DNA from: Saccharopolyspora phatthalungensis
Lineage (GTDB): Bacteria; Actinomycetota; Actinomycetes; Mycobacteriales; Pseudonocardiaceae
NCBI RefSeq assembly: GCF_014203395.1
Contig: NZ_JACHIW010000001.1
Location: 3,331,501 to 3,395,500, forward strand
Direction of reading: 5' to 3'
Length of the DNA stretch: 64,000 nt
Both the position numbers and the translations under genes were made by a program. The notes under the pieces were generated by a model. It did no database searches, was not told the DNA's origin, and worked only from the letters and a program-made list of their open reading frames with translations. This document shows, in pieces, positions 6,444 to 35,798 of this stretch. Each line of letters starts with the position of its first letter. Within the stretch, counting starts at the first letter, position 1.

Positions 6444-6539
6444 GCGGGTCGCTCCTCGGCGTGGCGAGCTGCGTGGCTGGGCCTGGGCGCGCGTGCGCGG
6501 CGCATGACGGCACCTCTCTCGGGGTCCTCGCCCCGGTTC

Positions 6540-6740: not shown

Positions 6741-6833
6741 CCAGGCATGATACGTGTCGCACCGCGCCAGACCTTCGCGCCAGGTCGCGCTTGGTTTGCG
6801 TCCGCAATTACCGGGGCCCGTAGTATCGGCCGG

Positions 6834-10997: not shown

Positions 10998-11047
10998 CCC
11001 GCTCGCCTCGTTCTCGTTGCCAACCCCATGAGAAGCATTCTCCCGGT

Positions 11048-13541: not shown

Positions 13542-13569
13542 CTAGCGCCAAGTCCGGGAAAGTTGGCGA

Positions 13570-13648
13570 TTTCGCGCGAAACGGGCTATGAAGCAGTGGC
13601 TGATCTCGCGGGACCTGCCGACTGATGGTCTTGATCAAAACAAACGCC
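13570..13648 (+). repeat. Left member of an inverted repeat bounding the accessory island
   Basis: These 79 bases match the reverse complement of 35,685-35,763 without gaps at 65 of 79 positions by hand count; the outermost 31 bases match at 29. Shared blocks include GGGCTATGAAGCAGTGG (13,583-13,599) and GATCAAAA (13,633-13,640). Both copies face inward at the edges of the DNA that separates cbiD from cobM, as terminal inverted repeats would. They could instead be copies of a dispersed 3'-flanking element. No target duplication was found next to them. Confidence 0.6.
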
Positions 13649-13658
13649 TTGAGGCGTT
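13634..13658 (-). terminator. Intrinsic terminator downstream of cas1
   Basis: On the minus strand a 6-bp stem AACGCC/GGCGTT is followed by TGTTTTGATC. It lies about 210 bases after the cas1 stop, partly inside the left inverted repeat. The short stem makes this moderate evidence. Confidence 0.45.
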
Positions 13659-13763
13659 GCTACGTACCGTAACGGGTGAAGCGAACAAGCGGCGTGATGC
13701 GCCCAGGGTGAGCAAGGCGCATGATGGGAACGCGGCGAATGACAGAGCGCATCACGTGGCGAT

Positions 13764-13800
13764 GCCCCCGCACCTTGGGTTGGGAAGCCGGTGCGGGGGC
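13764..13800. repeat. GC-rich hairpin after cas1
   Basis: Perfect 11-bp arms (GCCCCCGCACC and its complement) with a 15-base loop, about 70 bases beyond the cas1 stop. A similar hairpin (GCGATGCCC.. arms) occupies 35,591-35,622 at the same relative place inside the right inverted repeat. The two may be homologous parts of one longer element end. Terminator, RNA structure or protein-binding site are all possible. Confidence 0.5.
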
Positions 13801-13868
13801 CGCTGTTGCTCTAGTCTGTGTCGCTGTGGGCCGCTGGCCCGGCTACTAGCCCTAGCCGAGGCAGCGGC

Positions 13869-14972
13869 TTACGCCACGCCTACGCCGTTGAGCCAGCCTT
13901 CACGCTGGTTGGTGCCGGTAAGCCGGGTGGAGTCGGCTCGCTTCCAACCCTTCACGGTGCCGTTGATCAGTTTGCGGACGTGTTCGACGTGTTCGGCTAC
14001 GGCCCGGTGCCAGATCAACCGCTGTTCGGATAGCTCGCTGGTCAGTGGGCGCAGTACCCGGACCACGCCGGTGTCCTTTTCCACGAAGTCGGTCGGTTTG
14101 AAGGTGCGGTTTGCGATCAGGTGGGTCACGTAGGACTCGACCAATGGGCGGGCGACTTCGACGATGTCCAACGCCATCGATCGCATGTAGGTGTCGGAGT
14201 GGCATACACCCATGTTCGGGTCGACACCTTGCACGTAGCAAGCCAACACGGTTTCGGCTTTGGCGATTTCGTAGCAGTAGTTCAGCATCGCATTCACGGG
14301 ATTAATTGCGTTGCGGTTGGCGTTTTGTTTGGCGTTGGCGTTGTGGTTGAGTTCGCTGGTGCGTGAGTCGAAGATTCGCCAGTGATACGGCACTTGACCA
14401 TCGAATTGCAGCTCTAGCAGTCGCCATGAGTCGAAATATGCTCGCGCTTCTTCGGCTTCCACGGTGCGGCACTGCCGTTGGCTCGTGCAGGCGTTGAGTC
14501 TGTCGATCCAGGTGGCGGCGTCCCATTCCGGAATTACCTGCCGGTGTCCCTGGACCTTTTCGGCCAGAAGGTGTTTCGTGATCTTCAAACCGACAGAACG
14601 GGCGCACGCTTGCGCACGAAGCACTCTCGTGTCTGCCATCGATTGTGCCGAGGCATTCATCAATTCGCCTTCGGGGCTGATTACGACAAGGGAAATCGGG
14701 TCGGTGCGACGCTTACCGCCGGGTGTTACGCCTAGTCCGTGAATCCAGCTCATCGCGTCAATGGAAATGTGTCCGGTTTGGCCGATGACCACGATTCGCC
14801 GCACGTGGCGGTCCTTGCGGGCGATGGTGCGGGTGCGTCCGCGTCCGCACATGCCGTCTTTGATGACGAGTTCACCTTTTTTCACGGTGATGGAAATCCC
14901 GTGTCCGTCCACCACTACGACGGACGGGTCACGGGATTCGCGAGTGAATGTTTCGGTAATCGGTTCCGTCAT
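13869..14972 (-). CDS. cas1: Stand-alone Cas1 endonuclease/integrase
   Basis: About 367 residues. Cas1 integrates DNA ends as a metal-dependent nuclease/integrase. The N-terminal part (about 17-110) has the Cas1 strand-rich pattern VVVVDGHGISITVKKGEL and ISPEGELMNAS. The C-terminal helical domain holds the active-site set: Glu172 in VEAEEARAYF, His258 in GVDPNMGVCHSD and Asp269/Glu272 in SMALDIVEVARP, plus NPVNAMLNYCYEIAKAE. The ATG at 14,972 is preferred; 32 further in-frame residues upstream look non-coding. No cas2, other cas genes or CRISPR repeats occur in the window, so its role is probably not spacer acquisition for a local array. It is divergent from a small zinc-finger gene and lies just inside the left inverted repeat. 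Confidence 0.92.
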   Translation of the reverse strand: MTEPITETFTRESRDPSVVVVDGHGISITVKKGELVIKDGMCGRGRTRTIARKDRHVRRIVVIGQTGHISIDAMSWIHGLGVTPGGKRRTDPISLVVISPEGELMNASAQSMADTRVLRAQACARSVGLKITKHLLAEKVQGHRQVIPEWDAATWIDRLNACTSQRQCRTVEAEEARAYFDSWRLLELQFDGQVPYHWRIFDSRTSELNHNANAKQNANRNAINPVNAMLNYCYEIAKAETVLACYVQGVDPNMGVCHSDTYMRSMALDIVEVARPLVESYVTHLIANRTFKPTDFVEKDTGVVRVLRPLTSELSEQRLIWHRAVAEHVEHVRKLINGTVKGWKRADSTRLTGTNQREGWLNGVGVA

Positions 14973-15052
14973 GCATCCGATTTTAGTTGTCCGATGTCCA
15001 CGGTTGTGATGATCAGCGGATGCTGCGGATGATGCACTGAAAGGAAACATCC

Positions 15053-15271
15053 ATGTTAAAACGTGCACCCGCCGGAACCGTACGACTCCAATTCAAACGC
15101 TACCCGTTCAACAATGGACACGAATACCACGACCGCATCACAGGTCACATCCTATTCCGCGAACACACAAAATGGAAGTGTCGGCACTGCGATTTCCACG
15201 TTCCCGAACAGCGATACATGACGTGGCGAGCCATCATCGAAGATCACCGTAGACACAACGGCAAGACCTGA
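15053..15271 (+). CDS. Small putative C2H2-type zinc-finger protein
   Basis: A 72-residue basic protein with an AAGGA-like ribosome site placed well before the ATG. The second half has a CxxC pair (KCRHCDF) followed by EDHRRH, a plausible Cys2His2 zinc site. It is divergent from cas1 with 80 bases between starts, so the two may share regulation. Base use is AT-richer than the flanking cob genes, in keeping with acquired DNA. No specific family was recognised; a DNA-binding accessory role is only a guess. Confidence 0.6.
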   Translation: MLKRAPAGTVRLQFKRYPFNNGHEYHDRITGHILFREHTKWKCRHCDFHVPEQRYMTWRAIIEDHRRHNGKT

Positions 15272-15326
15272 TACCCTCACCGTGTCAGAGGGCGGTAAGC
15301 CAAGCCGACACATTCGAACCTCAGAC

Positions 15327-15368
15327 ACAGCGGTGCCCCGGTACGTCGGTTACCGGGGGCACCGCTGT
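15327..15368. terminator. Strong bidirectional hairpin terminator
   Basis: A long inverted repeat (arms beginning ACAGCGGTGCCCC) between the 3' ends of the convergent zinc-finger gene and the DUF397 gene. TTGTTTC follows on the plus strand. Its position between convergent stops supports use as a terminator. Confidence 0.65.
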
Positions 15369-15375
15369 TGTTTCG

Positions 15376-15549
15376 TCAGCGATCGAATCGGCCTGTCTTA
15401 ATGGCTCGAATGAACGCAGTCACGTCGACTTTCAGCGTCGGCCCCTTCGGGTCCTTGGAGTCTCGAAGCCGGTCTAAGGCGTTGGTCAACTCAACACAGT
15501 TGCCGTTAGGGTTGGAATAGCTTGACTTTCGCCAACGATGAGCGGTCAT
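15376..15549 (-). CDS. DUF397 protein
   Basis: A 57-residue protein beginning MTAHRWRKSSYSNPNGNCVE, the typical start of the actinobacterial DUF397 family, and containing RDSKDPKGPTL. It overlaps the stop of the upstream XRE regulator by four bases (ATGA). DUF397 genes nearly always follow an XRE-DUF5753 gene and some pairs influence development or secondary metabolism, but the molecular role is not settled. Confidence 0.85.
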   Translation of the reverse strand: MTAHRWRKSSYSNPNGNCVELTNALDRLRDSKDPKGPTLKVDVTAFIRAIKTGRFDR

Positions 15550-16397
15550 GGCGTCCTCTCCATTTCCTTTGCGATCTTTTCGATAAGTTCCGCAGAAGCG
15601 GCTGGATTTATCGCAATTTCGTGGAACTTATCCACGGCTTTCCTATATTCCGACACGTCATGTTCCGTGGGGACAAATGCGCCCGAACTGTAGTGCTCAA
15701 AGTGAACGACCGGCGGCGCGTCTGGAAAGTCGTAGAGCACAAACGGACCAGACCAACCCGGATGCCAGCCGACACGAAGCGGAACAACCCGTATCGAAAC
15801 GTTCGGGCGACTGCTCATTTTTACCAAGTGTAGAAGCTGGTTTACCATGACATTCGGTGATCCAATAGGCTCATGTAGAACTGCCTCGCTGATGAGGCCA
15901 TTAAAATGCACCGGATCATTACGGGTTATGACCTCACTTCTACCAATACGAACCATGACCCGTAGATCAATGTCCTTGTGGTCAAGTCCACTAGCTTGCA
16001 TTATTGCGCGGCTATAGTCTGGCGTCTGTAGCAAACCCGGGACTACCATCGGAGTCCATTCGGTAATTGCGGACGCCGAACGTTCGCATTCGACCGCACC
16101 GGCGAGCTGCTGCGGAATTCCGTTCATTCCGACAGTAAGCCAGTTTGGCTCGTCCACGTTTCGGGCTAGGTCGAGTATTCTTTCCCGTTCGTCGGCTGAC
16201 ACGCGAATAGCTGCGAGAATCATTGCGACTTGTTCAACGTTGGGTACCCGATGGCCATTTTCCCAGTGTGAGAGCTGGGTGTTCGAGAGTGAGAGCTGCC
16301 GTGCTAGTTCGCGCTGCCCTACTCCGCTAGCCATACGTGCCTCGCGGAGAGCTGCCGATAGTGCCCTTGCACGTGGCGTACCTGCGATAGCAGCCAT
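15546..16397 (-). CDS. XRE-family regulator with DUF5753 domain
   Basis: About 283 residues. A helix-turn-helix lies near residues 10-65 (LREARMASGVGQRELARQLS, then LSHWENGHRVP). The rest is a DUF5753-type domain (TEWTPMVVPGLLQTPDYSRA, PNVSIRVVPLRVGWHP). The ATG at 16,397 is preferred over an earlier in-frame ATG because it begins just before the HTH. It pairs with the DUF397 gene and is likely an island-borne or developmental regulator. Confidence 0.88.
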   Translation of the reverse strand: MAAIAGTPRARALSAALREARMASGVGQRELARQLSLSNTQLSHWENGHRVPNVEQVAMILAAIRVSADERERILDLARNVDEPNWLTVGMNGIPQQLAGAVECERSASAITEWTPMVVPGLLQTPDYSRAIMQASGLDHKDIDLRVMVRIGRSEVITRNDPVHFNGLISEAVLHEPIGSPNVMVNQLLHLVKMSSRPNVSIRVVPLRVGWHPGWSGPFVLYDFPDAPPVVHFEHYSSGAFVPTEHDVSEYRKAVDKFHEIAINPAASAELIEKIAKEMERTP

Positions 16398-16522
16398 GCA
16401 ACACATCCTATCGAGTGGTCCGGAAGAGACGGTCACCCGATTAGATCCCTGCACGGTATGCGCAATCAGAGGCTAGTTGCGTCATCAGCCGCAGGTTCGC
16501 AAACGTACGCGTAGGAGGGGTT

Positions 16523-16828
16523 ATGCAAAGTGGCGACATCGTGCCAGTACCGCCAAACGACGCCGAGAGCGGCCCCCAGACGGACGGTGACGAGCCGCTG
16601 CTGCCGTGCAACCAGCCTGCGCCCGTCCGGCGCTACTCGGAACAGTCACACCTGACACTGCTGCTCCGGCAGGCCGAGCACGCTATCAGGGACGCTTGCG
16701 ACAGCCTGATCCACAGCCGTTGCACGGATACAGAGCTGCACGACCTTGCCCACGGCCTTGAGATCGTCGCGGGTGGCGTCAGGGGCTATCTGGACACAAA
16801 GGATTCCACTGGTTCTTTTCCATCCTGA
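16523..16828 (+). CDS. Hypothetical protein, 3' end altered by IS
   Basis: A 101-residue protein preceded by a good ribosome site (GGAGGGG). It contains QSHLTLLLRQAEHAIRDACD and HDLAHGLEIVAGGVRGYLDT, a helical pattern seen in small proteins next to XRE-DUF397 pairs. The final residues and stop codon fall in the terminal sequence of the adjacent IS5-type element, so the original C-terminus is probably lost. No function can be assigned. Confidence 0.5.
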   Translation: MQSGDIVPVPPNDAESGPQTDGDEPLLPCNQPAPVRRYSEQSHLTLLLRQAEHAIRDACDSLIHSRCTDTELHDLAHGLEIVAGGVRGYLDTKDSTGSFPS

Positions 16829-17850
16829 TCTTGGCTGGTCAGGGGGTGTGGACGCGGGTGGTGGAGGTGTGGGTGGCCTGGTCAAGGGCATGATCGTTTC
16901 TGTTGATCATCTGACACCGGACGGGGACTCGGAAGCAGCGTGATCATGATCATGTTGCGGGAAGAGAAGACGAACGCCCTCGGCGGGTTTGAATGGTTCG
17001 TGACAACACAATCGAGCCCCGCCGAGGGCGCAGAGCCCATTATGTATCAGGTCCGGCTTCCGCTGTCGAGGACCACGATCGATTCCGTCGCCTCGCTGAT
17101 CACCGCCCACTGCAAGAAGATCGGCTCCCGCCGGCGCAAAGTCACTCCGGGCAGGCAGGCGGTCATCGTGCTTGCCGTGCTGCGTCACGATCAGCGGCTG
17201 CTGGATATGGCCGGGGGCAACGCCGTATCGGCCTCCACGATCAGCAGGTGGGTCGCCGAGGTCATCGACCTGCTGGCCGCCTGCGCCCCCCGCCTGGACC
17301 GGGTGCCGGCCAAAGCCACCCGCGCCGGAGCGGACATGGTGTTGCTGGACGGCACCCTGGTGCGCACCCAGCGCCGCAGCGGCCGTGACAACCGACGAAA
17401 CTACAGCGGTAAACACAAAGCCCACGGCCTGCTGTTTCTCGCCCTCACCGACGCCTGCGGCAACCTGCTGTGGATCTCCGCGGCCGCACCCGGCCGGGCC
17501 TCGGAGATCACCACCTCCCGCCGCAACAAGCTCACCACGAAACTCCGCGAGCACGGCCTGGGCGCCGTGGCCGACCTCGGGTTCACCGGACTGGAAGACG
17601 ACCCCGACGACCCGGTCATCATCACCGGCCGCCGCGCCGCCCGCTGCCACCCGATCACCGACGCCCAGAAGCAGGCCAACCAGCTCCTCGCCCGCGAACG
17701 CGCCGCCTGCGAACACGCCTTCGCCGACCTGAAGAACTGGCGCATCCTCACCCGGCTGCGCATGCACACCCGCAACGCCACCCGCCTGCTGCGAGCACTG
17801 CTGGTGCTGACCAACCTGGAAATCACCCGCTGACGAACAACCACGATCGC
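16806..17850 (+). mobile_element. IS5-family element, copy 1
   Basis: Starts at the terminal motif TTTTCCATCCTGATCT shared by three other copies in the window. The subterminal region holds CATCTGACACC and a GATCATGATC palindrome, followed by an intact transposase gene. The right end is unclear because a degenerate inverted copy abuts it at about 17,836. Confidence 0.6.
16940..17833 (+). CDS. IS5-family (DDE_4-type) transposase, intact
   Basis: Up to 297 residues. An N-terminal helix-turn-helix region (RHDQRLLDMAGGNAVSASTI) is followed by the DDE catalytic set: LLDGTLVRT, VADLGFTGL and RERAACEHAFADLKNW. This is the only copy here with all three acidic residues. The true start could be this ATG or the internal one at 17,041 (MYQVRLPLS); upstream residues such as GGFEWFVTTQ are conserved in the other copies. 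Confidence 0.85.
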   Translation: MIMIMLREEKTNALGGFEWFVTTQSSPAEGAEPIMYQVRLPLSRTTIDSVASLITAHCKKIGSRRRKVTPGRQAVIVLAVLRHDQRLLDMAGGNAVSASTISRWVAEVIDLLAACAPRLDRVPAKATRAGADMVLLDGTLVRTQRRSGRDNRRNYSGKHKAHGLLFLALTDACGNLLWISAAAPGRASEITTSRRNKLTTKLREHGLGAVADLGFTGLEDDPDDPVIITGRRAARCHPITDAQKQANQLLARERAACEHAFADLKNWRILTRLRMHTRNATRLLRALLVLTNLEITR

Positions 17851-18273
17851 GGAACCCGACACGGCGTCGCCCCCCGGCCATGCCCGGCAAGCGTCGGGCG
17901 TGACGCAGCACGGCCGGCGCGATGACCGCCTGCACGCCCGGGGGTGGCTTCGCGCCGGCGGGAGCCGATTTCCTTGCGCCAGACCGGAGATCACGTCGCT
18001 GACGGCGTGCGGGTGGAGACCGGCGGCAGGCCCCGGTACATAATGCGCGCTGCGCCCCCGGCGAGGTTTCTTTGTGTTGTCACGAACCCATCCGAACCCG
18101 CCGAGGGCTACCCTATTTCGTTTTCCCCGGCCGTGATCGCGATCACGCTGCCGTGGGCCGGGGGGACGGTGTCAGCTGATCACCCTTGATGATCATGACT
18201 CTGACCAGCCCACTCACACCTCGCCGCCCACGTCCACCCCACCTGACCTGCAAAGATCAGGATGGAAAACGCT
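17836..18273 (-). pseudogene. Degenerate 5' part of IS5-family transposase, copy 2
   Basis: On the minus strand the terminal motif AGATCAGGATGGAAAA (18,254-18,269 read on plus) and subterminal sequence lead into a frame-broken stretch matching roughly the first 80 transposase residues of copy 1, ending near its GNAVSAS segment. Several frameshifts are present. It abuts the 3' end of copy 1 in inverted orientation. Confidence 0.7.
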
Positions 18274-18303
18274 CAATGGAAATCGGCGTGCCGATTTCCA
18301 TTG
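18274..18303. repeat. Palindrome, family member 1
   Basis: A perfect 14-bp inverted repeat with a 2-base centre (arm CAATGGAAATCGGC). Related palindromes occur at 33,679-33,708 and 58,591-58,627. Here it sits where the ends of two IS5-type copies face each other. Confidence 0.75.
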
Positions 18304-18783
18304 ATCATCTGACACCGCCCCCACGGCCCACGGCAGGGTGATCATGATCACGGCCGGGGAAGACGAAAAAGGTGGCCCCCGGCGGGTTCGATTGGTTCGT
18401 GACAACACAAAAACCTCGCGGCGCAGCACCCATTATGTACCAGGTCCAGCTGCCGGTCTCCACCCGCACGCTTCAGGTCGTCAGTGACCTGGTTTCCGCT
18501 CGCCGCAAGAAGATCGGCTCCCGCTGGCGCAAGGCACCCCCGGGTAAGCAGGCGATCATCGCGCTGGCGGTGCTGCGTCACGACCAGCGGCTGCTGGACA
18601 TGGCCGGCGGCAACGGCGTCTCGGCCTCCACGATCCGCCGGTGGGTCCTGGAAGTCATCGACCTGCTGGCCGCCCGCGCCCCCCGCCTGGACCGCGTGCT
18701 GGCCACCACCGTCCGCACCGGGGGCGAGGTGGTCCTGGCCGAACCTGGCCGTCGTGCATCACCCCCGCCGGCAAAAACCTCCG
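18304..18783 (+). pseudogene. Truncated IS5-family transposase, copy 3
   Basis: The coding part begins at 18,372 (MAPGGFDWFVTTQ) and resembles copy 1 through RAPRLDRVLA, then loses similarity just where the first catalytic Asp should be and runs into the group II intron fragment. The catalytic residues are missing, so it is inactive. Confidence 0.8.
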
Positions 18784-19188
18784 CAGGTCACCGGGCCGGG
18801 GAGGGCCTCCCCAGTTCCCGCCGCCACTATCTGAACGTTCCGCGCCCCATACGCCGGGCAGTCCCTCACGGCTGCAATCCAGGAACTACACCGCTTCCAT
18901 GGCCTTCACCCCGATTCCGAAGGGCTCGGCACCCCCTGCCACCACCCTCACGGGCGGCATGAGTAACGACGCCGCAGGCTTCGCTTCACGCTACCGACCG
19001 CTCAGTCGCTCCCCCTACAAGGGCTTTCGACACTGGGCTTCGACACCGCAGGTTTCCCCACGACACCGCCAGTCTGCTACCGGGCCTCCTGGCAACTACC
19101 CGGACCGGACTCACACCGGCAAGCGACGACGAGCTGACAACAGAACATCAACCTCCTACACGGTCAACCCCCTGTCTGCTGGGCGCAC
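18784..19188 (-). mobile_element. Group II intron 5' fragment, copy 1
   Basis: Read on the minus strand it starts GTGCGCCCAG, the consensus 5' end of bacterial group II introns, and continues for 405 bases of structured domain-I-like sequence. There is no reverse transcriptase ORF and no recognisable domain V. The same 405 bases occur at 33,719-34,123. The 5' exon side reads ..CCATTGAGCGTTTTC, matching the terminal region of the neighbouring IS5-type elements. Confidence 0.75.
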
Positions 19189-19214
19189 CGAAAACGCTCA
19201 ATGAAATCGCCGCC

Positions 19215-19530
19215 CCCCAGCGTCCGCCCCCAGGAAGTCGACCGTGGCGAGGTAGCAGCCCTCGTGGTCGTGCACTGGAAGACCGTGACCCCGGCCGGCA
19301 CGATCTTCAGCTCATTCACCACTCCCAGCTCACCCAACCTGCGGTGGAAGGCCACGCAGCCGGAGGCCGGGGTGAGCTCGTCCTCCGTGCCGACCCGGCT
19401 GAACACCGGCGGACACGACGAATCCATATAGGACATTGGTGAGGCGACGGACACCGCTCAGGTCCGAGAAACTCCTCGACCATCTCACCAATAGCCGGGA
19501 CCCCGAGGCCGATCACCGGAGCGCAGGATT
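19215..19530 (-). pseudogene. Alpha/beta-hydrolase C-terminal remnant
   Basis: The minus strand encodes MVEEFLGPE, then SCPPVFSRVGTEDELTP and LGVVNELKIVPAG, as in the C-terminal half of lipase/acetyl-esterase-type hydrolases. The expected end (VHDHEGCYLATVDFLG) is present but in another frame, so at least one frameshift has occurred. The N-terminal catalytic part is absent. Confidence 0.65.
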
Positions 19531-19542
19531 GCACACAAGCCA

Positions 19543-19586
19543 CAAAAAGCCCGCTGACCTGCGCTTATGCGCCCGGTCAGCGGGCT
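19543..19586 (-). terminator. Strong intrinsic terminator
   Basis: Perfect 12-bp stem AGCCCGCTGACC/GGTCAGCGGGCT with a TTTTTGTGG run on the minus strand. It directly follows a tRNA-3'-end-like sequence on that strand, as terminators do after tRNA genes. Confidence 0.8.
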
Positions 19587-19613
19587 CCTCCGGCTGTCGG
19601 GATTCGAACGCTC
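19587..19613 (-). other. tRNA 3'-end-like fragment, possible attachment-site remnant
   Basis: The minus strand reads GTTCGAATCCCGACAGCCGG, resembling the T-loop and acceptor 3' part of a tRNA, followed at once by a terminator. The matching 5' half of a tRNA is absent, and the T-stem does not pair with the bases upstream. Integrative elements often leave such a tRNA tail as an att site, but no integrase gene is seen nearby. From 19,614 to 19,853 I see nothing else. Confidence 0.4.
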
Positions 19614-19853
19614 GCCCCTCGACCCCAGTCAGGTCCTAAGAGGACAGCCGCTGGCGGAAACATCGAAACCGCTGGGAAACGCATCCGTTCGCAGCAGTCA
19701 CACAGCTTCACGCCAGTACGGCACCTCGCCCGTTCCGAGCGACCCTCAAGATGATTGAGGTTTCCGAAAAATCTCGCCACCCGCACACAGCGGTGACGAA
19801 AAGCCATCACATTCGGCAGCGGCATCTGGGGGCATAGGCGGCAAGCCCGCAGC

Positions 19854-21541: not shown

Positions 21542-21556
21542 GACTTCTCCAGACTT

Positions 21557-21877: not shown

Positions 21878-21881
21878 GCGT

Positions 21882-24721: not shown

Positions 24722-24723
24722 TC

Positions 24724-27931: not shown

Positions 27932-30431
27932 TGTCGTGATGTTGCGCGATCTGCGGGCGGATGATGCCGCCGCGGCGGGTCCGAAGGCGGCGAATCTCGG
28001 CGAACTGATCTCGTTGGGTGCGCCCGTCCCGGACGGCTTCTGCCTGATGACATCGGTGTACGACACCCTGATCGCGCCGAAGCTGGCCGCGCAAGTGGAG
28101 CGGCTTGCCGCCGCCGTGGAGGCTGGGCAATCCCTCGAACCGGTCACACAGGCGCTGCGGGATTCCGTCGAAGCGGTCGAGCTTCCCGACGGGTTGTTGG
28201 CTGAGTTGGAAGAGGCGTTCCGCGCCGTGTGCCCAGCGCGGGGCGCGGTCGCGGTCAGGTCGTCGGGCACGTCGGAGGACTCCGCGACCACCAGCTTCGC
28301 CGGCCAGTACCGCACCGAGCTCGCCCTGCGCTCGTTCGACGACATGATGGTCGCGGTGAAGCGGTGTTGGGCGTCGCTGTGGGAATCGCACGCCATCCGC
28401 TATCGCGAGCGGCAGGGCATCGCGCACACCGCAGCGAGCATGGCGGTAGTCGTGCAGGCCGTGGCGCACGCCGAAGCCGCAGGCGTGATGTTCACCGCGG
28501 GACCGGCCGACGGGCACCTGATGATCGAGTCGAGCTGGGGGCTGGGGGAAGCTGTGGTGAGCGGATTGGTCACCCCCGACCGGTTTAGCGTTTCCCGCCC
28601 GGAAATCCGGGTAGCGGATGTCACGCTGGGCAGCAAGGAGTGGATGGTCGTTCCGGCGCCAGATGGCGGCACGGCCGTCGCCGAAGTTCCTGTCGACGAG
28701 CGGGCAAGAGCATCGCTCACCCGCGCCCAAGCAGCAGAGCTGGCCCGGCTCGGCCTACGAGTGGAGGAGCACTTCGGCAGCTCCCAAGACATTGAATGGG
28801 CTATCGCGGACGGAAAGATCGCTCTCCTCCAGGCGCGTCCGCTCACCCACCACAGTCCGGCGACCTCGGTCGCCTGGGAGAGTCCGATCGATGGCGCCTG
28901 GTGGGCGCGGATCAGCATCTGTGACTCGTGGCTGCCCGAACCGTTATCGCCGCTATTCGCCACCACCCTCTTCCCGCACCTGGTGAAGAGATGGCTTGAG
29001 AACTGGGCCGGCCCGGAGGCAGAGCAGCTGACCAACCCGCTGCTGCCCAAGCCAATGGCCGGCACCATCAACGGGTTCGGCTACCTGCGCCTTGACTACC
29101 CGATGAACCGATACCCGCTGCGCACGCTCAAACTAGCGCTGCGGTGCTACCGATACCATCTCGGGTTTCTTGGTAAACGCTGGCGCACCGAGATTCTGCC
29201 CCGGCACATCGACCGGCTAACGGCGATGCGTGCACTCGACCTGACTCAGCTGAACACCGGCGAACTGTTGGCGCTGATCGACGAGGCGCAGGACCTCAGC
29301 GCACGCTACTGGGCGATCCTAGGCGGCCTCGCCTGGTATTGGAACGGTGGCGAGTGGCTGCTGGACAGGACATATGCGGGCCTCACCGCGCCAGCCGCCC
29401 GCACTGGTGTCGCGATCCCACACTACGGTGTGCTGTTGCAGGGTTACGCCACCAAGACCTCGGACGCCGACTCCGCGCTGCACCACCTGGCGCGATCTGA
29501 ACACGACTTCCCCGCAACACGATTCGCCGATGTGCTCGCCGAGTACGGGCACCAAGTGTTCCACCTCGACTTCGTCGAACCTACGCCAGCGGAAGATCCG
29601 TCGATGCTCGTCAAGACCATCGATGGCTACCGCGACGGCCGGTTGCAGGCCCCGCGCGAGCGGCTGCGCGGACTGGCGAAACGCCGGGAACAAGCCGAAG
29701 CGGAGCTGTTCTCGGCGTTGTGCGGAGCACCAGTGCGCCGGGCGCTCCTCCGCGCGCTAATGCGCTGGAACCGCCGCTACGCGCAAGTTCGCGACCGGGC
29801 GCTGTTCTACTTCACCCTGGGTTGGCCGACGATCCGCCGCTCCTACCTCGAACTGGGCAGACGGCTGGTCGCGGCAGGCGCGCTGGGCTTCGAAGAGGAC
29901 GTGTTCTACCTGACCTCCGACGAACTGTTGGGCGATCTGCAGTCAGACGCGCCAGCTCGACGCCACGAGGTGGTGCGCCAGCGGCGAGCGCTGCGCGAAA
30001 AGCAGAAGCTCCTCAGCCCGGTACCGCAGGTGCCGGAGTCGAAGCGCCTTTTCATGGGCGGACTGGACGTCACCGCGGTGGCGCTGCTCGGGCAGCAGAC
30101 CAAACGGGCCAATCGCGGCTCAGGCATCAGCGGGTCACCGGTCAGCCCTGGCCGGGTCACCGCGCCGGCCCGGCACATCACCTCGGTGCGTGCCTTCGAC
30201 AAGCTTGAAGCTGGCGATGTGCTGGTCGCGTCGTATATCACGCCGGCGTGGTCGCCACTGCTCGCCATCGCCGGCGGCGTGGTGACCGACGCCGGTGGCG
30301 CGCTCTCGCACGGTTCGATCGTGGCCCGGGAATACGGGATACCCGCCGTGATGGGAACCAACAACGCGACAAAACTGATTCAGGATGGCCAGATCGTCAC
30401 CGTGGACGGCGACTGCGGGCTGGTGTACTGA
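27924..30431 (+). CDS. PEP-synthase / rifampicin-phosphotransferase-like dikinase
   Basis: About 835 residues. The N-terminal ATP-grasp nucleotide-binding part has GPKAANLGELI and VRSSGTSEDSATTSFAGQY. The C-terminal swivelling phosphohistidine domain has GGALSHGSIVAREYGIPAVMG with the catalytic His. Enzymes of this fold transfer the beta-phosphate of ATP through His to pyruvate, or to a drug hydroxyl as in rifampicin phosphotransferase. The PEP-binding TIM-barrel of true PEP synthase is replaced by a central region of about 400 residues, favouring a dedicated small-molecule phosphotransferase. It could phosphorylate the terpenoid for biosynthesis or self-protection. Confidence 0.85.
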   Translation: MRDVVMLRDLRADDAAAAGPKAANLGELISLGAPVPDGFCLMTSVYDTLIAPKLAAQVERLAAAVEAGQSLEPVTQALRDSVEAVELPDGLLAELEEAFRAVCPARGAVAVRSSGTSEDSATTSFAGQYRTELALRSFDDMMVAVKRCWASLWESHAIRYRERQGIAHTAASMAVVVQAVAHAEAAGVMFTAGPADGHLMIESSWGLGEAVVSGLVTPDRFSVSRPEIRVADVTLGSKEWMVVPAPDGGTAVAEVPVDERARASLTRAQAAELARLGLRVEEHFGSSQDIEWAIADGKIALLQARPLTHHSPATSVAWESPIDGAWWARISICDSWLPEPLSPLFATTLFPHLVKRWLENWAGPEAEQLTNPLLPKPMAGTINGFGYLRLDYPMNRYPLRTLKLALRCYRYHLGFLGKRWRTEILPRHIDRLTAMRALDLTQLNTGELLALIDEAQDLSARYWAILGGLAWYWNGGEWLLDRTYAGLTAPAARTGVAIPHYGVLLQGYATKTSDADSALHHLARSEHDFPATRFADVLAEYGHQVFHLDFVEPTPAEDPSMLVKTIDGYRDGRLQAPRERLRGLAKRREQAEAELFSALCGAPVRRALLRALMRWNRRYAQVRDRALFYFTLGWPTIRRSYLELGRRLVAAGALGFEEDVFYLTSDELLGDLQSDAPARRHEVVRQRRALREKQKLLSPVPQVPESKRLFMGGLDVTAVALLGQQTKRANRGSGISGSPVSPGRVTAPARHITSVRAFDKLEAGDVLVASYITPAWSPLLAIAGGVVTDAGGALSHGSIVAREYGIPAVMGTNNATKLIQDGQIVTVDGDCGLVY

Positions 30432-30446
30432 GGAAAGGAGCCGACC

Positions 30447-31016
30447 GTGACCACTGTCAGTCTGGCCGAGTGGACCCCTGGCCTCGACGACGCGATCACT
30501 TTGGGTGAGGCTTACGACGCGATGCCGGGTGACGACGCGTCAGCGATCCCGTGGTACGTCCGGCTACTGGAAAACCCGTGGAGCCCACTAGCGCTGCCCG
30601 GTGCGATCGACCTGTTCGGCCACGACTGCGTGCACATTCTGCTGGGCCGTGGCGCACTTCCCTCGGACGAGGCGTTCGTGCTGGGCGTGACTATGGGCGC
30701 CAGCGGTCGGCTGAAACCGTGGCAGCAGGTGCTGTACGCGCTTGCCACCCAGCATCTGTACCGCGCTCCGTTCCGGTTCACCCGCAGCGACCTGGTGATC
30801 TACGACATGGCTGCCGAGTACGGGCGGAATTCCAAGATCAAGTCGCTGCACCACGTGCCGTGGCCCGAATTGCGGGACCGCCCGCTCGGGGACATCCGCG
30901 CATCGCTGGGCGTGGACGCCACCGAGCTGATGACCGTTTACCAGACCGAGCGGGCCATGTGGCCGGACAGCCGGGCTGCCCAGCGGTTGCCGAGTCACGC
31001 GCCGCGCCCGTACTGA
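30447..31016 (+). CDS. Coq4-like protein
   Basis: 189 residues carrying the exact Coq4 metal motif HDxxHx11E: His59-Asp60, His63 and Glu75 in FGHDCVHILLGRGALPSDEA. Coq4 acts in ubiquinone synthesis, where it has been linked to removal and oxidation of the ring carboxyl position. Actinobacteria normally make menaquinone, and no other Coq gene is here, so this copy is probably repurposed for tailoring in the terpenoid pathway. It overlaps the next start by one base. Confidence 0.75.
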   Translation: MTTVSLAEWTPGLDDAITLGEAYDAMPGDDASAIPWYVRLLENPWSPLALPGAIDLFGHDCVHILLGRGALPSDEAFVLGVTMGASGRLKPWQQVLYALATQHLYRAPFRFTRSDLVIYDMAAEYGRNSKIKSLHHVPWPELRDRPLGDIRASLGVDATELMTVYQTERAMWPDSRAAQRLPSHAPRPY

Positions 31017-31999
31017 TGGAAGCTGGACCCTCAGTAGTCAAAGCCCGGCTAGGCATAGCGTTTCGGCTGTTGTGCGTGGTCGCCACGGTCGCGGCGCTGT
31101 GGTGGTTCCTGCACGGTCTCGACCTCCAGGCATTAGCCGACACGTTCCAGCGGGCCGAGCTGTGGCCACTGCTGGTAGGAGTGCTGCTCAATTTCCTCGG
31201 CCACCTGGTCCGGGCGCAGGCTTGGCAAGTCATGCTCGGGCCGCGCCATCCCATCCCTTACCCCAGGCTGCTGCGCTACGAGCTGGCCGCTCAGGCGGCC
31301 TCCGCGATCAGCCCAGCCCGCGCCGGCGAAGTGCTGCGATTCTGGCTGCTCAAGCAGGACGATGTGCCGGCGGGGGTCACAGGTGCACTCATCGTGCTGA
31401 AGAAGGTGCTCGGCGGCGTGGGATTGGTCATTCTTGCAGTCAGCGCGCCGTGGTTCCTCCCGGGTCTACCCGGCTGGATGACCGGTTTCGTCACGGCCTT
31501 CACCGCCTTCATGTTCCTACAACTCGTCGTGTTGCTCGTCGTCGCACACCGCGCCGGGAAAGCTCGCCTACCGAAATACCTTCGCAGCGTAGTAGCCGGG
31601 ATGTACTTCCTGCGCGACCGGAAACGCATGCCTTTCGCGCTCGGCCTGATGCTCATCGGAGAGATGACCGACGCCGCCGCGGTAGCGGTCGTACTGCTGG
31701 CGCTGAATCTGCACCTCCCGGTCGCGGCGACCTTGCTGACCCTGTTCTTGATCGATTTTTCGAACATGCTGCCGGTGGCGCCCGGTCACGTGGGAACGTT
31801 CGAAGTCGGAGCGCTTTACGCGATGGACCTGATGCACGTGTCCCGAGACAGTGCCCTCGCGTTTGCCCTGCTGTTCCACGCACAGCAGGTGCTGCCCCAA
31901 ATCGTCACCGGGCTCCCCCTCGAATTGAAGCTGCTGGCCAGCAGGAGGGCTGGCTCGGCGCTTGACGCACCGTCTGCCGAATCCGCGACGAGGGACTAA
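31016..31999 (+). CDS. UPF0104 / LPG-synthase-TM-like membrane protein
   Basis: 327 residues with about eight hydrophobic helices, of the YbhN/UPF0104 type related to the flippase part of lysylphosphatidylglycerol synthase (ALWWFLHGLDLQALADTF at the start, SPARAGEVLRFWLL, MLPVAPGHVGTFEVG near the end). Members are seen near lipid and terpenoid genes. It could move the lipophilic product or precursor across the membrane (inference). Last gene of the operon. Confidence 0.75.
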   Translation: MEAGPSVVKARLGIAFRLLCVVATVAALWWFLHGLDLQALADTFQRAELWPLLVGVLLNFLGHLVRAQAWQVMLGPRHPIPYPRLLRYELAAQAASAISPARAGEVLRFWLLKQDDVPAGVTGALIVLKKVLGGVGLVILAVSAPWFLPGLPGWMTGFVTAFTAFMFLQLVVLLVVAHRAGKARLPKYLRSVVAGMYFLRDRKRMPFALGLMLIGEMTDAAAVAVVLLALNLHLPVAATLLTLFLIDFSNMLPVAPGHVGTFEVGALYAMDLMHVSRDSALAFALLFHAQQVLPQIVTGLPLELKLLASRRAGSALDAPSAESATRD

Positions 32000-32319
32000 T
32001 CACCGATCCTGGTTGTCGTAGCGCAGCTGCCGCAGCCCAAAACCCGCGATTCCGAACATGATTTGACATCGGTTCTCGCTTTGGCCAACGAGTGACCTAT
32101 GTGGACATCGGCGTTGCACGCCCGCAAAGTCAGCCGATCCTGCACGCGCCCGACAACGAGATCAACAGCTATTCAATCGCACACCCGATCAAGACCCAAG
32201 CACGTCGCTGGACCAAACTTAGTAACCTCCAAGGGCACCACAGTAGAGCTCTTTTTCCGACCGCAGCAGCGGACCCCAGCACAGTCCACCATCACCGCAA
32301 CAACTTTTTCAGGTCGAAG
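32000..32319. other. Intergenic stretch with nothing recognised
   Basis: 320 bases after the terpenoid operon. Short open frames exist on both strands, but none has a ribosome site or a recognisable motif, and no clear terminator was found. Confidence 0.4.
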
Positions 32320-32892
32320 TTAGTTTGGTGTGACGACGCGTCGGACGCTGTCGCGGAGCAGGGTTCGGCGCTGTTCGTGCATTTCCGGGGGCTCTTGATC
32401 GGTGGCGGCGTAGACGTTGCTGACCGGTGACCATGCCATGGACATCGCGATCACCACGGCCATCAGGTCGAACGGGTCCCCGGCCCGGACGGTGCCCGCG
32501 GCTTGCGCATCGGCGATGGCGCGCAGTTTTACGTCGTCGAGACGATCGGCATCGTCGACGAGGTGACCGGCCGGGCGTCGTTCGAGGCGTGCCCAGGTGG
32601 CCAGCCGGATGAGGTCCGGGCGGCGGAGGTATTCGTCGTACAAACGCACGGCCCAGTCCGCGAGATCGGTGGAGTCGATCGGGACGACGGTCATGATCCG
32701 TTCCAGGGAGCCGAAGAAAATCGCGTCGAACAACCCTTCCTTGCTACCGAAATAGCCGTAGAGCTGAGCCTTGTTGGTGCGGGCCGCGGCCACGATGCGT
32801 TCGACGCGCGCCCCGGCGATCCCGTGCTCGGCGAACTCCCGCGTTGCCACGTCCAGGATGCGCTGCCGCGTCGCGGCGCCACGCGAGGTCAC
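32320..32892 (-). CDS. TetR-family regulator
   Basis: 190 residues. A TetR N-terminal helix-turn-helix (ATRQRILDVATREFAEHG, then NKAQLYGYFGSKEGLFDAI) is followed by a C-terminal ligand domain. A GTG start at 32,892 is used. Its 5' end abuts a truncated alcohol dehydrogenase on the other strand, so its own promoter may be altered. It might regulate the lost neighbour rather than the terpenoid cluster. Confidence 0.85.
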   Translation of the reverse strand: MTSRGAATRQRILDVATREFAEHGIAGARVERIVAAARTNKAQLYGYFGSKEGLFDAIFFGSLERIMTVVPIDSTDLADWAVRLYDEYLRRPDLIRLATWARLERRPAGHLVDDADRLDDVKLRAIADAQAAGTVRAGDPFDLMAVVIAMSMAWSPVSNVYAATDQEPPEMHEQRRTLLRDSVRRVVTPN

Positions 32893-33592
32893 CTACAGCG
32901 GCACCGACCGCCACGACGGATCCACCACGCTGGGCGGCTACTCCCGCGAGTACATCGTCCACGACCAGTTCACCTACCCGCTGCCCACCGGACTCGATCC
33001 CGCAGCCGCGGCCCCTCTCTTGTGCGCGGGGATCACCGTCTGGGAACCACTCCAGGCACTTGGTGTCGGCCCTGGTAGCCGTGTCGCGGTGGCCGGACTC
33101 GGCGGTCTCGGACACCTAGCGGTCAAACTCGCCGTCGCACTCGGCGCCGACACCACGGTCATCAGTCGATCGACCGACAAAACCAATGACGCCCGCCGCC
33201 TCGGCGCTCACGACCTGATCGTGTCCACGGACGAACGGCAGATGACCGCATCCCGGAACCGGTTCGACGTCGTCATCGACACCATAGCCGTCCCGCACGA
33301 CATCGACCCCTACCTGCGGCTCGTCGCCCTGGACGGAACGCTCAGCCACCTCGGGCACCTTGGCCCGGTCACGGTGCAGACCACCGACCTGCTCGTCGGG
33401 CGAAAGAAACTCAGCTCCGCGGGCAGCGGCGGCCGACCCGCGACCACCGCCATGCTCGAGTTCTGCGCCAAGCACAACGTCACCGCCGACGTCGAACTCG
33501 TCCCCTCCAAGCACATCAACGAAACCCTCGAACGCCTGGAGCGCAACGACGTTCGCTACCGCTTCGTGCTGGACATGTCCGACCTGTCGTAA
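32884..33592 (+). pseudogene. N-terminally truncated zinc alcohol dehydrogenase
   Basis: Encodes the C-terminal two-thirds of an MDR alcohol dehydrogenase of the YahK/cinnamyl-alcohol type: TLGGYSREYIVHDQF, then the Rossmann site VAGLGGLGHLAVKLAVALG, ending VRYRFVLDMSDL. The first ~110 residues, with the catalytic zinc ligands, are missing, and the frame begins against the TetR start. A deletion has joined the two. Confidence 0.8.
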
Positions 33593-33678
33593 ACCGCACC
33601 ACGAACGAGCGTGGCTAGGGCGATGAGTGCTTGGGACGAGCGGTGGTCGAGGGGCCTGGCTTTCGGGTTTGGCGGTTT

Positions 33679-33708
33679 CAATGGAAATCAACGCGCTGAT
33701 TTCCATTG
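33679..33708. repeat. Palindrome, family member 2
   Basis: Perfect 12-bp arms CAATGGAAATCA/TGATTTCCATTG around ACGCGC, followed by GAGCGTTTTTC and then the group II intron fragment. The hairpin plus T-run looks like an intrinsic terminator, the type of site favoured by group IIC introns. Confidence 0.75.
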
Positions 33709-33718
33709 AGCGTTTTTC

Positions 33719-34123
33719 GTGCGCCCAGCAGACAGGGGGTTGACCGTGTAGGTGGTTGATGTTCTGTTGTCAGCTCGTCGTCGCTTGCCGGTGTGAGTCC
33801 GGTCCGGGTAGTTGCCAGGAGGCCCGGTAGCAGACTGGCGGTGTCGTGGGGAAACCTGCGGTGTCGAAGCCCAGTGTCGAAAGCCCTTGTAGGGGGAGCG
33901 ACTGAGCGGTCGGTAGCGTGAAGCGAAGCCTGCGGCGTCGTTACTCATGCCGCCCGTGAGGGTGGTGGCAGGGGGTGCCGAGCCCTTCGGAATCGGGGTG
34001 AAGGCCATGGAAGCGGTGTAGTTCCTGGATTGCAGCCGTGAGGGACTGCCCGGCGTATGGGGCGCGGAACGTTCAGATAGTGGCGGCGGGAACTGGGGAG
34101 GCCCTCCCCGGCCCGGTGACCTG
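33719..34123 (+). mobile_element. Group II intron 5' fragment, copy 2
   Basis: Begins GTGCGCCCAG after a hairpin and T-run, and extends 405 bases, ending at GGTGACCTG. Nearly identical to the fragment at 18,784-19,188 and cut at the same base. It lacks the reverse transcriptase and domains V-VI, so it cannot splice or move on its own. It continues directly into the 3'-truncated transposase copy 4. Confidence 0.77.
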
Positions 34124-34698
34124 TGGAGTGTGGTGGTGAGCTTGTTGCGGCGTGAGGTGGTGATTTCCGAGGCGCGGCCGGGTGCGGCTGCGGAGATCCA
34201 CAGTAGGTTGCCGTGGGCGTCGGTGAGGGCGAGAAACAGCAGGCCGTGGGTTTTGTGTTTACCGCTGTAGTTTCGTCGGTTGTCACGGCCGCTGCGGCGC
34301 TGGGTGCGCACGAGGGTGCCGTCCAGCAACATCATGTCCGCTCCGGCGCGGGTGGCTTTGGCCAGCACGCGGTCCAGGCGGGGGGCGCGGGCGGCCAGCA
34401 GGTCGATGACCTCGGCGACCCACCTGCTGATCGTGGAGGCCGATACGGCGTTGCCCCCGGCCATGTCCAGCAGCCGCTGGTCGTGACGCAGCACGGCCAG
34501 CACGATGACCGCCTGCCTGCCCGGAGTGACTTTGCGCCAGCGGGAGCCGATCTTCTTGCAGTGGGCGGTGATCAGCGAGGCGACGGAGTCGATCGTGGTC
34601 CTCGACAGCGGAAGCCGGACCTGATACATAATGGGCTCTGCGCCCTCGGCGGGGCTCGATTGTGTTGTCACGAACCATTCAAACCCGCCGAGGGCCAC
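34124..34698 (-). pseudogene. 3'-truncated IS5-family transposase, copy 4
   Basis: Minus strand, starting MALGGFEWFVTTQSSPAEG and closely matching copy 1 through the first catalytic Asp (LLDGTLVRTQ) to RRNKLTT, where the intron fragment begins. The second Asp and the Glu are lost, so it is inactive. Confidence 0.85.
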
Positions 34699-34856
34699 CT
34701 TTTTCGTCTTCTCCGGCCGTGATCATGATCACATGCCGTGGACCGCGGGGACGGTGTCAGATGATCAATCTCGATGATCACGACTCTGACCAGCCCACTC
34801 ACACCTGACCACCCACGTCCATGCCTCCTGATCTGCGAAGATCAGGATGGAAAAAG
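34699..34856 (-). mobile_element. Terminal region of IS5-family copy 4
   Basis: Contains the subterminal palindrome GTGATCATGATCAC (34,721-34,734), GGTGTCAGATGATC and the terminal motif AGATCAGGATGGAAAA (about 34,839-34,854), matching the ends of copies 1-3. Confidence 0.7.
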
Positions 34857-35137
34857 CTCACTGGGGGCACGCAGTGACCGCAGCGTTCCTATTCGCACCA
34901 GCGCCCGAGACAGAAGGGGACGCCGGACCGCCAGGGGGCCGGGTGGTCTGGACTGACCATCTGGGGTTCACGCACGAACGCAAGCCCGGCACCATCGCGA
35001 CGTCGCGATGCGGGCTCAACATGGGCATATCCAACGAACCGCCGTGCGCCCGCCCCTGCCGCAAATGCCTTGATGAGGCGTTGCAGGAAGAGTCTCCGCC
35101 CGACGTGGACAGCGGACGCCATAGGCGCATCGCCTAA
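34847..35137 (+). CDS. Hypothetical protein with CxxC pair
   Basis: A 96-residue open frame whose first codon lies in the IS terminal motif, so the native start may be different, for example the GTG at 34,874 or one lost to the insertion. It holds VVWTDHLGFTHERKPGT and PCARPCRKCLDEAL with four cysteines that could bind metal. No family recognised. Confidence 0.4.
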   Translation: MEKAHWGHAVTAAFLFAPAPETEGDAGPPGGRVVWTDHLGFTHERKPGTIATSRCGLNMGISNEPPCARPCRKCLDEALQEESPPDVDSGRHRRIA

Positions 35138-35291
35138 CCCCAGACACGGCCCGGTGCTGCGTCTGCTCCAACCGGAGCGGCCCCCCGGCCCGGCACCGGT
35201 CCGTCGCGGCCGGTTGGCGTCCTTCCCTCACCCTTGGCGTCAACCGGCCGCTTCCAATTCAATCGCGAGACTTGGAGAAATAGCCAAAGTA

Positions 35292-35729
35292 ATGACCGAT
35301 CGGGTGGACGGCGTGAAGCACGGATCGCACGCGGCGTATAAAAAGTATGGTTGTAGATGCACTAAATGTTCTACGTGTATGTCGGCATATCGCAAAGCTT
35401 TGATGCAAAAGAGGCGGCAAACTCCAATACCTAGCGATAAACATGGAACCGCCACCGGGTACCACTATGGTTGTCGTTGTTCTCGCTGCTCAGAGGCCCG
35501 ACGGGATTACATGAGAGAGCAGAAAGCGAAACTTCGACTCAAGCCTGCGACGGCGTGCGAGAGCACGTCGCAAAGCTTGACCACGACGCAGCGATGCCCC
35601 GCACCCACGGTGCGGGCATCGCCACACCAACGACCCTGTACCCACCAGCCGCATCAGCGGTTACTGTCCGTACAGACGGATCGGGGCGTTTATTTTGATC
35701 ATGGTCATCAGGTGGCAGGGGCCGCGTGA
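35292..35729 (+). CDS. Duplicated HG..GCRCxxC zinc-motif protein, phage/ICE type
   Basis: Residues about 5-70 carry two copies of a metal-binding-like motif: KHGSHAAYKKYGCRCTKC and KHGTATGYHYGCRCSRC, each followed by a basic helix (AYRKALMQKRR; DYMREQKAKLRLK). Such small proteins are common in actinophages and integrative elements. Beyond about residue 95 the frame runs through a hairpin (35,591-35,622) and the right inverted repeat, so the C-terminal third is probably read-through and the natural stop may have been lost. AT-rich codon use supports recent acquisition. Confidence 0.65.
   Translation: MTDRVDGVKHGSHAAYKKYGCRCTKCSTCMSAYRKALMQKRRQTPIPSDKHGTATGYHYGCRCSRCSEARRDYMREQKAKLRLKPATACESTSQSLTTTQRCPAPTVRASPHQRPCTHQPHQRLLSVQTDRGVYFDHGHQVAGAA
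35591..35622. repeat. GC-rich hairpin at right island end
   Basis: Inverted repeat with arms GCGATGCCC-GCACC and its near-complement, inside the right edge. Counterpart of the hairpin at 13,764-13,800. Confidence 0.5.
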
Positions 35730-35763
35730 AGGGCCACTGCTTCATAGCCCATTTCGTGCGAAA
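35685..35763 (-). repeat. Right member of the inverted repeat bounding the island
   Basis: Reverse complement of this stretch aligns without gaps to 13,570-13,648 (65/79 by hand count; 29/31 at the outer end). Contains CCACTGCTTCATAGCCC (35,734-35,750). Lies about 35 bases from the 3'-flanking repeat next to cobM, so it is close to the junction with the cob locus. Confidence 0.6.
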
Positions 35764-35798
35764 CCGGCGGTCCCGCCGAGGCACTAGCGACGGATCGA

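Follow-up and report, generated by a model that had tools for sequence, protein, structure and literature searches.

The window analysed here, a 64,000-nucleotide stretch of the Saccharopolyspora phatthalungensis genome (contig NZ_JACHIW010000001.1, positions 3,331,501 to 3,395,500), carries an insertion with inverted-repeat ends and a cas1 gene between the cobalamin genes cbiD and cobM. We consider it very probable that this insertion (window positions 13583–35750) descends from a Cas1-encoding tectivirus-like provirus by internal deletion and is itself non-viral; it would be a casposon in the broad sense, kin to casposon family 3, that was integrated by Cas1 acting as a casposase into a palindromic repeat dispersed in the host genome. 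Cas1 is the enzyme that writes CRISPR memory, and CRISPR adaptation is thought to descend from casposons. To our knowledge, descriptions of bacterial casposons are few, and little has been reported on their targets. At the level of sequence, paired ends, a 14-bp duplication, a near-palindromic target, colinearity with a fuller relative, a 12.2-kb loss and an unbroken, conserved cas1 are present. Integration by a casposase into the dispersed palindromic repeat is probable, Cas1 presumably carried it out, and the element may still be able to move.

The initial annotation of this locus had placed a 79-base inverted repeat at the two edges of the insertion. On recount, 13570–13648 and the reverse complement of 35685–35763 were identical at 65 of 79 positions and at 29 of 31 at the outer end, exactly as counted by hand, and a repeat search extended the pair to 117 nt (77%). 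The best 79-mer in a shuffle control (50 mononucleotide shuffles of the two 1-kb neighborhoods) reached 41/79; a chance origin of the pair is excluded. While the inverted repeat does form the ends of the element, its outer 13 bases belong to the host target, and the element proper spans 13583–35750 (22,168 bp). Both ends open with GGGCTATGAAGCAGTGGC, their first 18 nt are identical, and the terminal inverted repeats (TIRs), counted from the GGG end, match at 76.2% over 101 nt (blastn E 1.9e-18). Contrary to the annotation, which had seen no target duplication, a 14-bp direct repeat (13/14 identical) abuts the element, with ATTTCGCGCGAAAC on the left (13569–13582) and ATTTCGTGCGAAAC on the right (35751–35764). 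The inward hairpins that it had described were found at both ends; we also noted, by eye, a similar hairpin at both ends of the relative G072 described below. The boundary features are as follows, L007 being a 1.6-kb element elsewhere in the same genome:

13569–13582, + strand: left copy of the target duplication, ATTTCGCGCGAAAC, 13/14 against 35751–35764 and flush with the GGG end
13583–13683, + strand: left TIR on the cas1 side, beginning GGGCTATGAAGCAGTGGC, 96% identical to the cas1-side end of L007
13755–13805, + strand: left subterminal hairpin, -34.5 kcal/mol
35588–35636, + strand: right subterminal hairpin, -26.6 kcal/mol
35650–35750, - strand: right TIR, beginning GGGCTATGAAGCAGTGGC when read inward and matching the non-cas1 end of L007 at 94% over the outermost 66 nt
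35751–35764, + strand: right copy of the target duplication, ATTTCGTGCGAAAC, 13/14

The window genome holds further copies. A query with the left end returned six places, namely the two window ends, the two ends of L007 and two single ends (C2:1601568 and C1:3883713), and a query with the right end returned nine matches, which added two worn copies (C2:2101827 and C2:1237685). L007 is a second inverted pair, 1.6 kb apart, between recG and pyc (flanks CTTTCCCTTGAAAT and ATTTCCCTTGAAAT). Its cas1 is reduced to the last 29 codons, next to which lie a DUF397 protein and, immediately inward of the left end, a fragment of a DDE_5 transposase. This fragment (L007:2929–3936) stops at the inner border of the L007 left terminal repeat. 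The window element and L007 share two end types, a cas1 side and another side, which are paired alike (counterpart ends 96% identical over 238 nt and 94% over 66 nt), as expected for copies of one element. In L007, another internal stretch of a similar parent has been lost. Elsewhere, a LeuC/aconitase-like 3' end (named by eye) is duplicated at L008:4107–4522 and 7183–7718, flanking a worn element relic. A second lineage is represented by L032, a 14,998-bp element (L032:1863–16860, about 4435862–4450859 of G000:C1) whose ends are 98% identical over 220 bp and are flanked by a perfect duplication, ATTTCCATTGAAAT. Its Cas1 is 37% identical to the window Cas1 and has a C-terminal match to DUF4096 (IS4/5-type), and its family B DNA polymerase (PolB) is split over two frames, the first of which matches Pfam DNA_pol_B_2 (E 4.8e-8), with the motifs DFTSMYP and DTDS recognized by eye. 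L032 also encodes helix-turn-helix (HTH) proteins, a JmjC protein, a DDE transposase and a weak APH match.

Relatives were also found in other genomes. The element of G021, from the same genus, is 7,432 bp long and has cas1 split over two frames, ends 97% identical over 208 bp, and flanks AGTTCAGGCAAAAC and AGTTCAGGCAAGAC. G020 (S. spinosa NRRL 18395) retains Cas1 plus one end with the same start; the left end of this element was not found. The cas1 homologue of G007 is shortened, and its frame is disrupted. Together with G072 there are five two-ended elements in three genomes, three of them in the window genome (window, L007 and L032) and one each in G072 and G021; the four other than the window element measure 1.6–16.0 kb. 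For each of the five, we compared n bases to the left with n bases to the right, letting n run from 8 to 20. A length of 14 gave 13, 13, 14, 14 and 13 matches, against only 0–9 at n = 8–13 and 15–20. When the 14-bp flanks were compared in direct versus inverted orientation, the direct repeat clearly prevailed in three of five elements (L007 13/9, G072 14/10 and G021 13/3; the figures for the window and L032 were 13/11 and 14/12). All ten ends begin with GGG followed by CTA, TTA or ATA (GGGNTA), and G072 and G021 sit on other target sequences yet have duplications of 14/14 and 13/14. The earlier suggestion of a Cas1-linked, casposon-type element is supported by the shared GGGNTA motif and the 14-bp duplications, and further by the casposase matches and the PolB-bearing relative presented below.

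The target itself recurs throughout the genome. The palindrome ATTTCNNNNGAAAT occurs in 189 exact copies in 8.54 Mb, versus one copy of a reversed-letter control, and many of the listed sites are paired 24 bp apart, forming a larger hairpin. An imperfect pair of this kind was seen at window positions 58587–58631. In the window genome, such a site adjoins each of the three two-ended elements, as well as two single ends, with 0–1 mismatches; both G007 ends and the S. spinosa end do so too (0–2 mismatches across all such ends), and the two worn copies (C2:2101827 and C2:1237685) lie off the palindrome. The G072 target is itself a near-palindrome. We propose that Cas1, as a casposase, would join the two GGG-initial ends (GGGCTATGAAGC) to the two strands of a host palindrome with the core ATTTCNNNNGAAAT, that the two joins would be staggered by 14 bp, and that gap repair would then duplicate these 14 bp; the terpenoid gene cluster found inside the element would have arrived as a block bounded by insertion sequences (ISs) in the right part of the element.

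As the initial annotation stated, the cobalamin locus is split here; cbiD and cobM are no more than 1.5 kb apart in 10 of 11 close relatives (11 of 21 other genomes were examined, the cbiD hits of the other 10 being only 43–46% identical). Palindromes lie between the two genes in 6 of these 11 relatives and, since the genes are also close in 10 of 11, the window site appears to be a usual place for the target. The proposed comparison with insert-free genomes yielded no exact empty site, a point to which we return below. A simple scan of 35200–36100 found no T-run terminators.

Could the two repeats be independent solo relics that bracket an IS-built island by coincidence, with no single element between them? 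The single ends at C2:1601568 and C1:3883713, the several IS copies inside the island and the mere 76% identity of its ends would all fit such a history. Solo relics, however, would not predict a 14-bp duplication flush with both ends, the pairing of the same end types in a 1.6-kb element, right-part DNA and genes in the order of G072, or the proximity of cbiD and cobM in nearly all close relatives, and we judge this alternative improbable. The initial annotation had named repeats that occur singly in relatives, after unrelated genes, as grounds for abandoning the element. Single copies do exist in the window genome: two occupy the same palindromic target, another two are worn and lie off it, and L007 provides a second paired copy.

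We next turn to the cas1 gene.

13869–14972, - strand: cas1, casposase-like, 367 aa, Pfam Cas_Cas1 E 9.4e-25

The description of this gene as a cas1 with intact catalytic residues just inside the left end held up: the Pfam match is real, and E172, H258, D269 and E272 are invariant across nine aligned sequences. The reading frame is unbroken, the protein is 71% identical to G072 Cas1, and dN/dS between the two genes is ~0.19 (dN 0.23, dS 1.21), with synonymous sites near saturation. Its best PDB profile match is the Methanosarcina mazei casposase (135.7 bits; next best 118.4), and casposase chains are the three best PDB fold matches (best E 2.4e-15) of an AlphaFold2 model built from a nine-sequence alignment (mean pLDDT 75.4). 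PADLOC returned only Cas1 and HTH-type matches. The gene is of the stand-alone type, with no CRISPR-like array seen among the 20 of 35 direct-repeat families inspected for 13300–36100 and no search made for cas2.

Two rival accounts would unlink Cas1 from the integration. In one, a solo Cas1 was kept by the host for CRISPR adaptation or repair, and the four Pfam Cas1 matches in the window genome (the window copy included) might be taken to favor this. Such a host gene is hard to reconcile with the position of Cas1 just inside the inverted repeats of three elements (window, G072 and G021) and between the repeats of L032, with the shortened, frame-disrupted G007 copy, or with the affinity of the window Cas1 to casposases; of all the alternatives weighed here, we find this the least credible. 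In the other, a DDE transposase made the repeats and the duplication, and Cas1 is a passenger. An IS with a Pfam DDE_5 match (12241–13515) is located just beyond the left end, on the cbiD side and external to the element, and the DDE_5 fragment of L007 lies just inside the left end there, an arrangement that does count against integration by Cas1. Nevertheless, these two DDE_5 copies are on opposite sides of the end; none was recognized at the G072, G021 or L032 ends, inspected by eye with no family scan of the flanks, and cas1 lies inside those elements; and the 14-bp duplications and GGGATA starts match archaeal casposons. The IS at 12241–13515 is accordingly retained as a rival maker of the repeats and is not favored, its involvement being highly improbable.

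The ancestry of the window element was read from G072, a 16,026-bp element without visible damage (L040 and L041, joined positions 15210–31235) with identical 176-bp ends and a perfect 14-bp duplication. Its contig is named S. erythraea and is placed in another genus of the same family. Besides Cas1, the element encodes an unbroken PolB of 959 aa (Pfam DNA_pol_B_2 E 6.9e-6, 0.2 bits under the cut-off; identity to the two PolB frames of L032 51% and 43%), an ATPase of the packaging type (phrog_2666, E 1.9e-23) and a 391-aa tectivirus-type capsid protein. The last of these matches major capsid or coat genes of 14 phage records (three of them RefSeq duplicates), including the Rhodococcus phages P19 and Toil, Streptomyces phages such as WheeHeim, and Microbacterium phages (24–26% identity, E to 5e-16); an S. 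noursei protein is 58% identical to it. In S. hattusasensis, one contig encodes both a Cas1 84% identical to the window Cas1 and a protein 92% identical to the G072 capsid. A single 11-kb stretch of Actinocrispum wychmicini (G147, L042:4209–15511) encodes homologues of the G072 ATPase (58%), capsid (53%), PolB (44%) and Cas1 (32%). No terminal ends were found for this Actinocrispum element; the same procedure picked up both positive controls, the pairs of G072 and G021 (the latter plus one additional weak hit), and gave nothing in a negative control. Cas1-encoding tectivirus-like proviruses thus occur in Saccharopolyspora as well and, by gene content, in Actinocrispum.

The window element aligns colinearly with G072 positions 1–58, then 188–1397 (cas1), 13594–14039 and, near the right end, 15698–15778. 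Window 13816–15019 corresponds to G072 188–1397, and window 15020–15465 directly continues with G072 13594–14039:

15019–15020: internal deletion junction, at which G072 positions 1398–13593 (12,196 bp) are missing

The deleted part spans nearly all of PolB (1347–4226) together with the capsid (8674–9849) and ATPase (10055–10765) genes. None of the three gave a tblastn match anywhere in the window at E 1e-3, both the G072 and the L032 PolBs having been used as queries, in line with the annotation's remark that there is no PolB gene. PolB is therefore lacking from the window element and present in G072, G147 and L032, and capsid and packaging ATPase are lacking from it and present in G072 and G147. 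The remaining element genes lie to the right of the junction:

15546–16454, - strand: HTH + DUF5753 regulator, in the same place as the regulator in the right part of the G072 element
16523–16828, + strand: 101-aa protein whose gene loses its 3' end to the IS block; its homologue in G072 is the 98-aa protein next to the regulator
34847–35137, + strand: 96-aa open reading frame, 77% identical over 70 aa to the copy beside the decayed G007 cas1
35292–35606, + strand: 105-aa protein with zinc-type Cys motifs by eye, phrog_4234 E 1.3e-6, no Pfam match

The regulator is 31% identical to its G072 counterpart, similar regulators occurring elsewhere in the fetched loci, so that this likeness is weak alone; the 101-aa and 98-aa proteins are 37% identical over 79 aa (E 2.8e-13). 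The 105-aa protein, a second copy of which (76% identity over 86 aa) sits in another relic in the window genome, had been called a phage-type zinc-motif gene; the Cys motifs are there by eye, but the match to a phage HNH family is only partial, and Pfam gave none.

Most of the element interior is an IS-bounded block, without which the element measures 4.1 kb. Inverted copies found by a repeat search mark its edges (I1, 571 nt, 96%; I2, 428 nt, 99%; and I14), with a Pfam DDE match at 16940–17833. The inner block edges share the 428-bp inverted copy with group II intron 5' domains. The 5' part of a group II intron (RF02003, 95.2 bits) occurs there in two inverted copies, at 18986–19122 (- strand) and 33785–33921 (+ strand), and an Rfam scan of 13000–36500 returned group II intron pieces only. 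The block and its contents are:

16816–34854: IS-bounded block holding the terpenoid cluster, its outer IS ends being inverted copies
20279–31999: terpenoid-type cluster
20279–21541, - strand: P450
21557–21877, - strand: SMR transporter
21882–22604, - strand: Pyr4-type membrane terpene cyclase
22601–23428, - strand: 275-aa protein, no match in Pfam, NCBIfam or PADLOC
23822–24721, + strand: polyprenyl synthase
24718–27931, + strand: three Rieske oxygenases
27867–30431, + strand: PPDK/PEP-synthase-like enzyme
30447–31016, + strand: 189-aa protein, unknown
within 30551–31999, + strand: LPG-synthase-TM protein

In the favored reading, the terpenoid cluster reached the right part of the element within a block bounded by ISs. 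A competing account, in which the whole 22 kb moved in one Cas1 step and the cluster is true casposon cargo, appears unlikely though not negligible. It draws on the ends and the duplication, which bracket the whole block, and on the Pyr4-type cyclase, which at E 1e-20 matched nothing in the 20 further genomes listed for the genus (a list without G007) and is found at 35–40% identity in eight other family genomes (9 of 294 searched, own included). On the other hand, the cluster is bounded by inverted IS copies and the block interrupts the gene for the 101-aa protein, in keeping with an IS event that was later or separate; and the other four elements are all smaller, at most 16.0 kb. No target duplication of the block was seen by eye at 16815/34855. 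The initial annotation had proposed a distinct element carrying the cluster as cargo. The element is not of a distinct kind, being a deleted provirus derivative, and the cluster resides in an IS-bounded block within it, so that mobilization of the terpenoid cluster by Cas1 is no more than possible.

Several observations weigh against the interpretation of the insertion as a provirus derivative integrated by Cas1. The window ends are only 76% alike and those of L007 81%, compared with 97–100% for L032, G021 and G072; the window duplication carries one mismatch; and the window 14-bp flanks already match at 11/14 when compared inverted, since the targets share the palindrome. Among 20 non-cognate left/right pairs, matches at n = 14 ranged from 3 to 13 (one 13 and one 12). 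Insertions that share a palindrome should resemble one another in this comparison, and any single duplication is therefore weaker as evidence. No second end was found for the single and worn copies. Two of the five elements do not use the palindrome (G072 and G021, with 7 and 3 mismatches of 10 fixed letters). Lastly, no relative had an exactly matching empty site at either cbiD–cobM or recG–pyc. The latter genes are no more than 1.5 kb apart in 17 of 21 relatives, and a palindrome (up to one mismatch) between them, or in the stretch examined, was found in only 1 of 21; we therefore rejected the recG–pyc site as empty-site proof for the 1.6-kb element.

At E <= 1e-15, relatives of the window Cas1 were found in 5 of 297 genomes of the family sample. 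Order and class surveys gave at least 3 of 397 and 2 of 394 genomes, respectively; they scored only three candidates per genome, which makes these counts lower bounds (own genome included throughout). A scan of genome contigs with a five-Cas1 alignment gave two loci. In a 5.8-billion-protein database, six proteins, own included, matched at E <= 1e-10 (2,232 candidates scored). A nine-relative profile matched 2,679 proteins at E <= 1e-12 among 7,999 scored, a number that may include CRISPR Cas1 proteins. Its listing contained a large group of casposase-like Cas1 proteins of about 510 aa; among the 120 matches listed, most were about 500–520 aa and came from jgi, ena and lgn sources, which we took to be largely metagenomes. 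The window Cas1 had no match among viral contigs, and the G072 PolB had none among phage records. An alignment of metagenomic Cas1 proteins matched one viral contig, in which a 273-aa Cas1 frame lies beside a serine recombinase, an arrangement that is not comparable.

The closest described systems are the Toil-like tectivirus proviruses of S. noursei and S. albulus (StrAlb-C1, casposon family 3), which combine Cas1, PolB, tectivirus-type capsid and ATPase as G072 and G147 do (PMC5894146, PMC4046053). The window copy differs from family 3 elements in lacking PolB, capsid and ATPase and in holding an IS-bounded terpenoid cluster; its kinship to the Streptomyces elements is by description, the sole sequence compared being the S. 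noursei capsid homologue (PMC5894146). Archaeal casposons of M. mazei and Aciduliprofundum boonei share the Cas1 integrase and a duplication in the 14-bp range. Published values are 14 bp for the M. mazei casposase and 14–15 bp for A. boonei (PMC6977970), with a median casposon target site duplication of 15 bp (PMC4046053); the M. mazei repeat begins GGGATATAGG, a GGGATA start (PMC10359463). By contrast with the insertions described here, which mostly occupy dispersed palindromic repeats, the archaeal elements prefer tRNA 3' ends, and the window copy differs from them in lacking PolB. L007, which keeps both ends and the duplication with only the last 29 codons of cas1, resembles a miniature inverted-repeat transposable element, but unlike in such elements the parent integrase would be Cas1 rather than a DDE transposase. 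Our literature search found no casposon work on biosynthetic gene clusters or Saccharopolyspora, although the targets of family 3 may be described in print. As far as that search reaches, palindromic-repeat targeting, internally deleted derivatives and biosynthetic cargo are new, whereas the basic kind of element is known.

A bolder, doubtful proposal would be that Saccharopolyspora casposases form a site-specific system that reads dispersed palindromes, duplicates a 14-bp core and mobilizes deleted derivatives, one of them with a still-movable 18-kb terpenoid cluster; such core duplication would resemble CRISPR repeat duplication. Collectively, our results describe one genome with several Cas1-linked insertions on dispersed palindromes and a 14-bp duplication at each of the three two-ended ones, and they document internally deleted casposon derivatives and a casposon locus turned home of a natural-product cluster. 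Cas1-encoding tectivirus-like viruses known in 2018 came from S. noursei and S. albulus only, according to PMC5894146, and Saccharopolyspora and Actinocrispum would, against that literature, join their hosts. This genome may thereby offer a bacterial system in which to test how palindromic repeats came to be duplicated by a Cas1 integrase.

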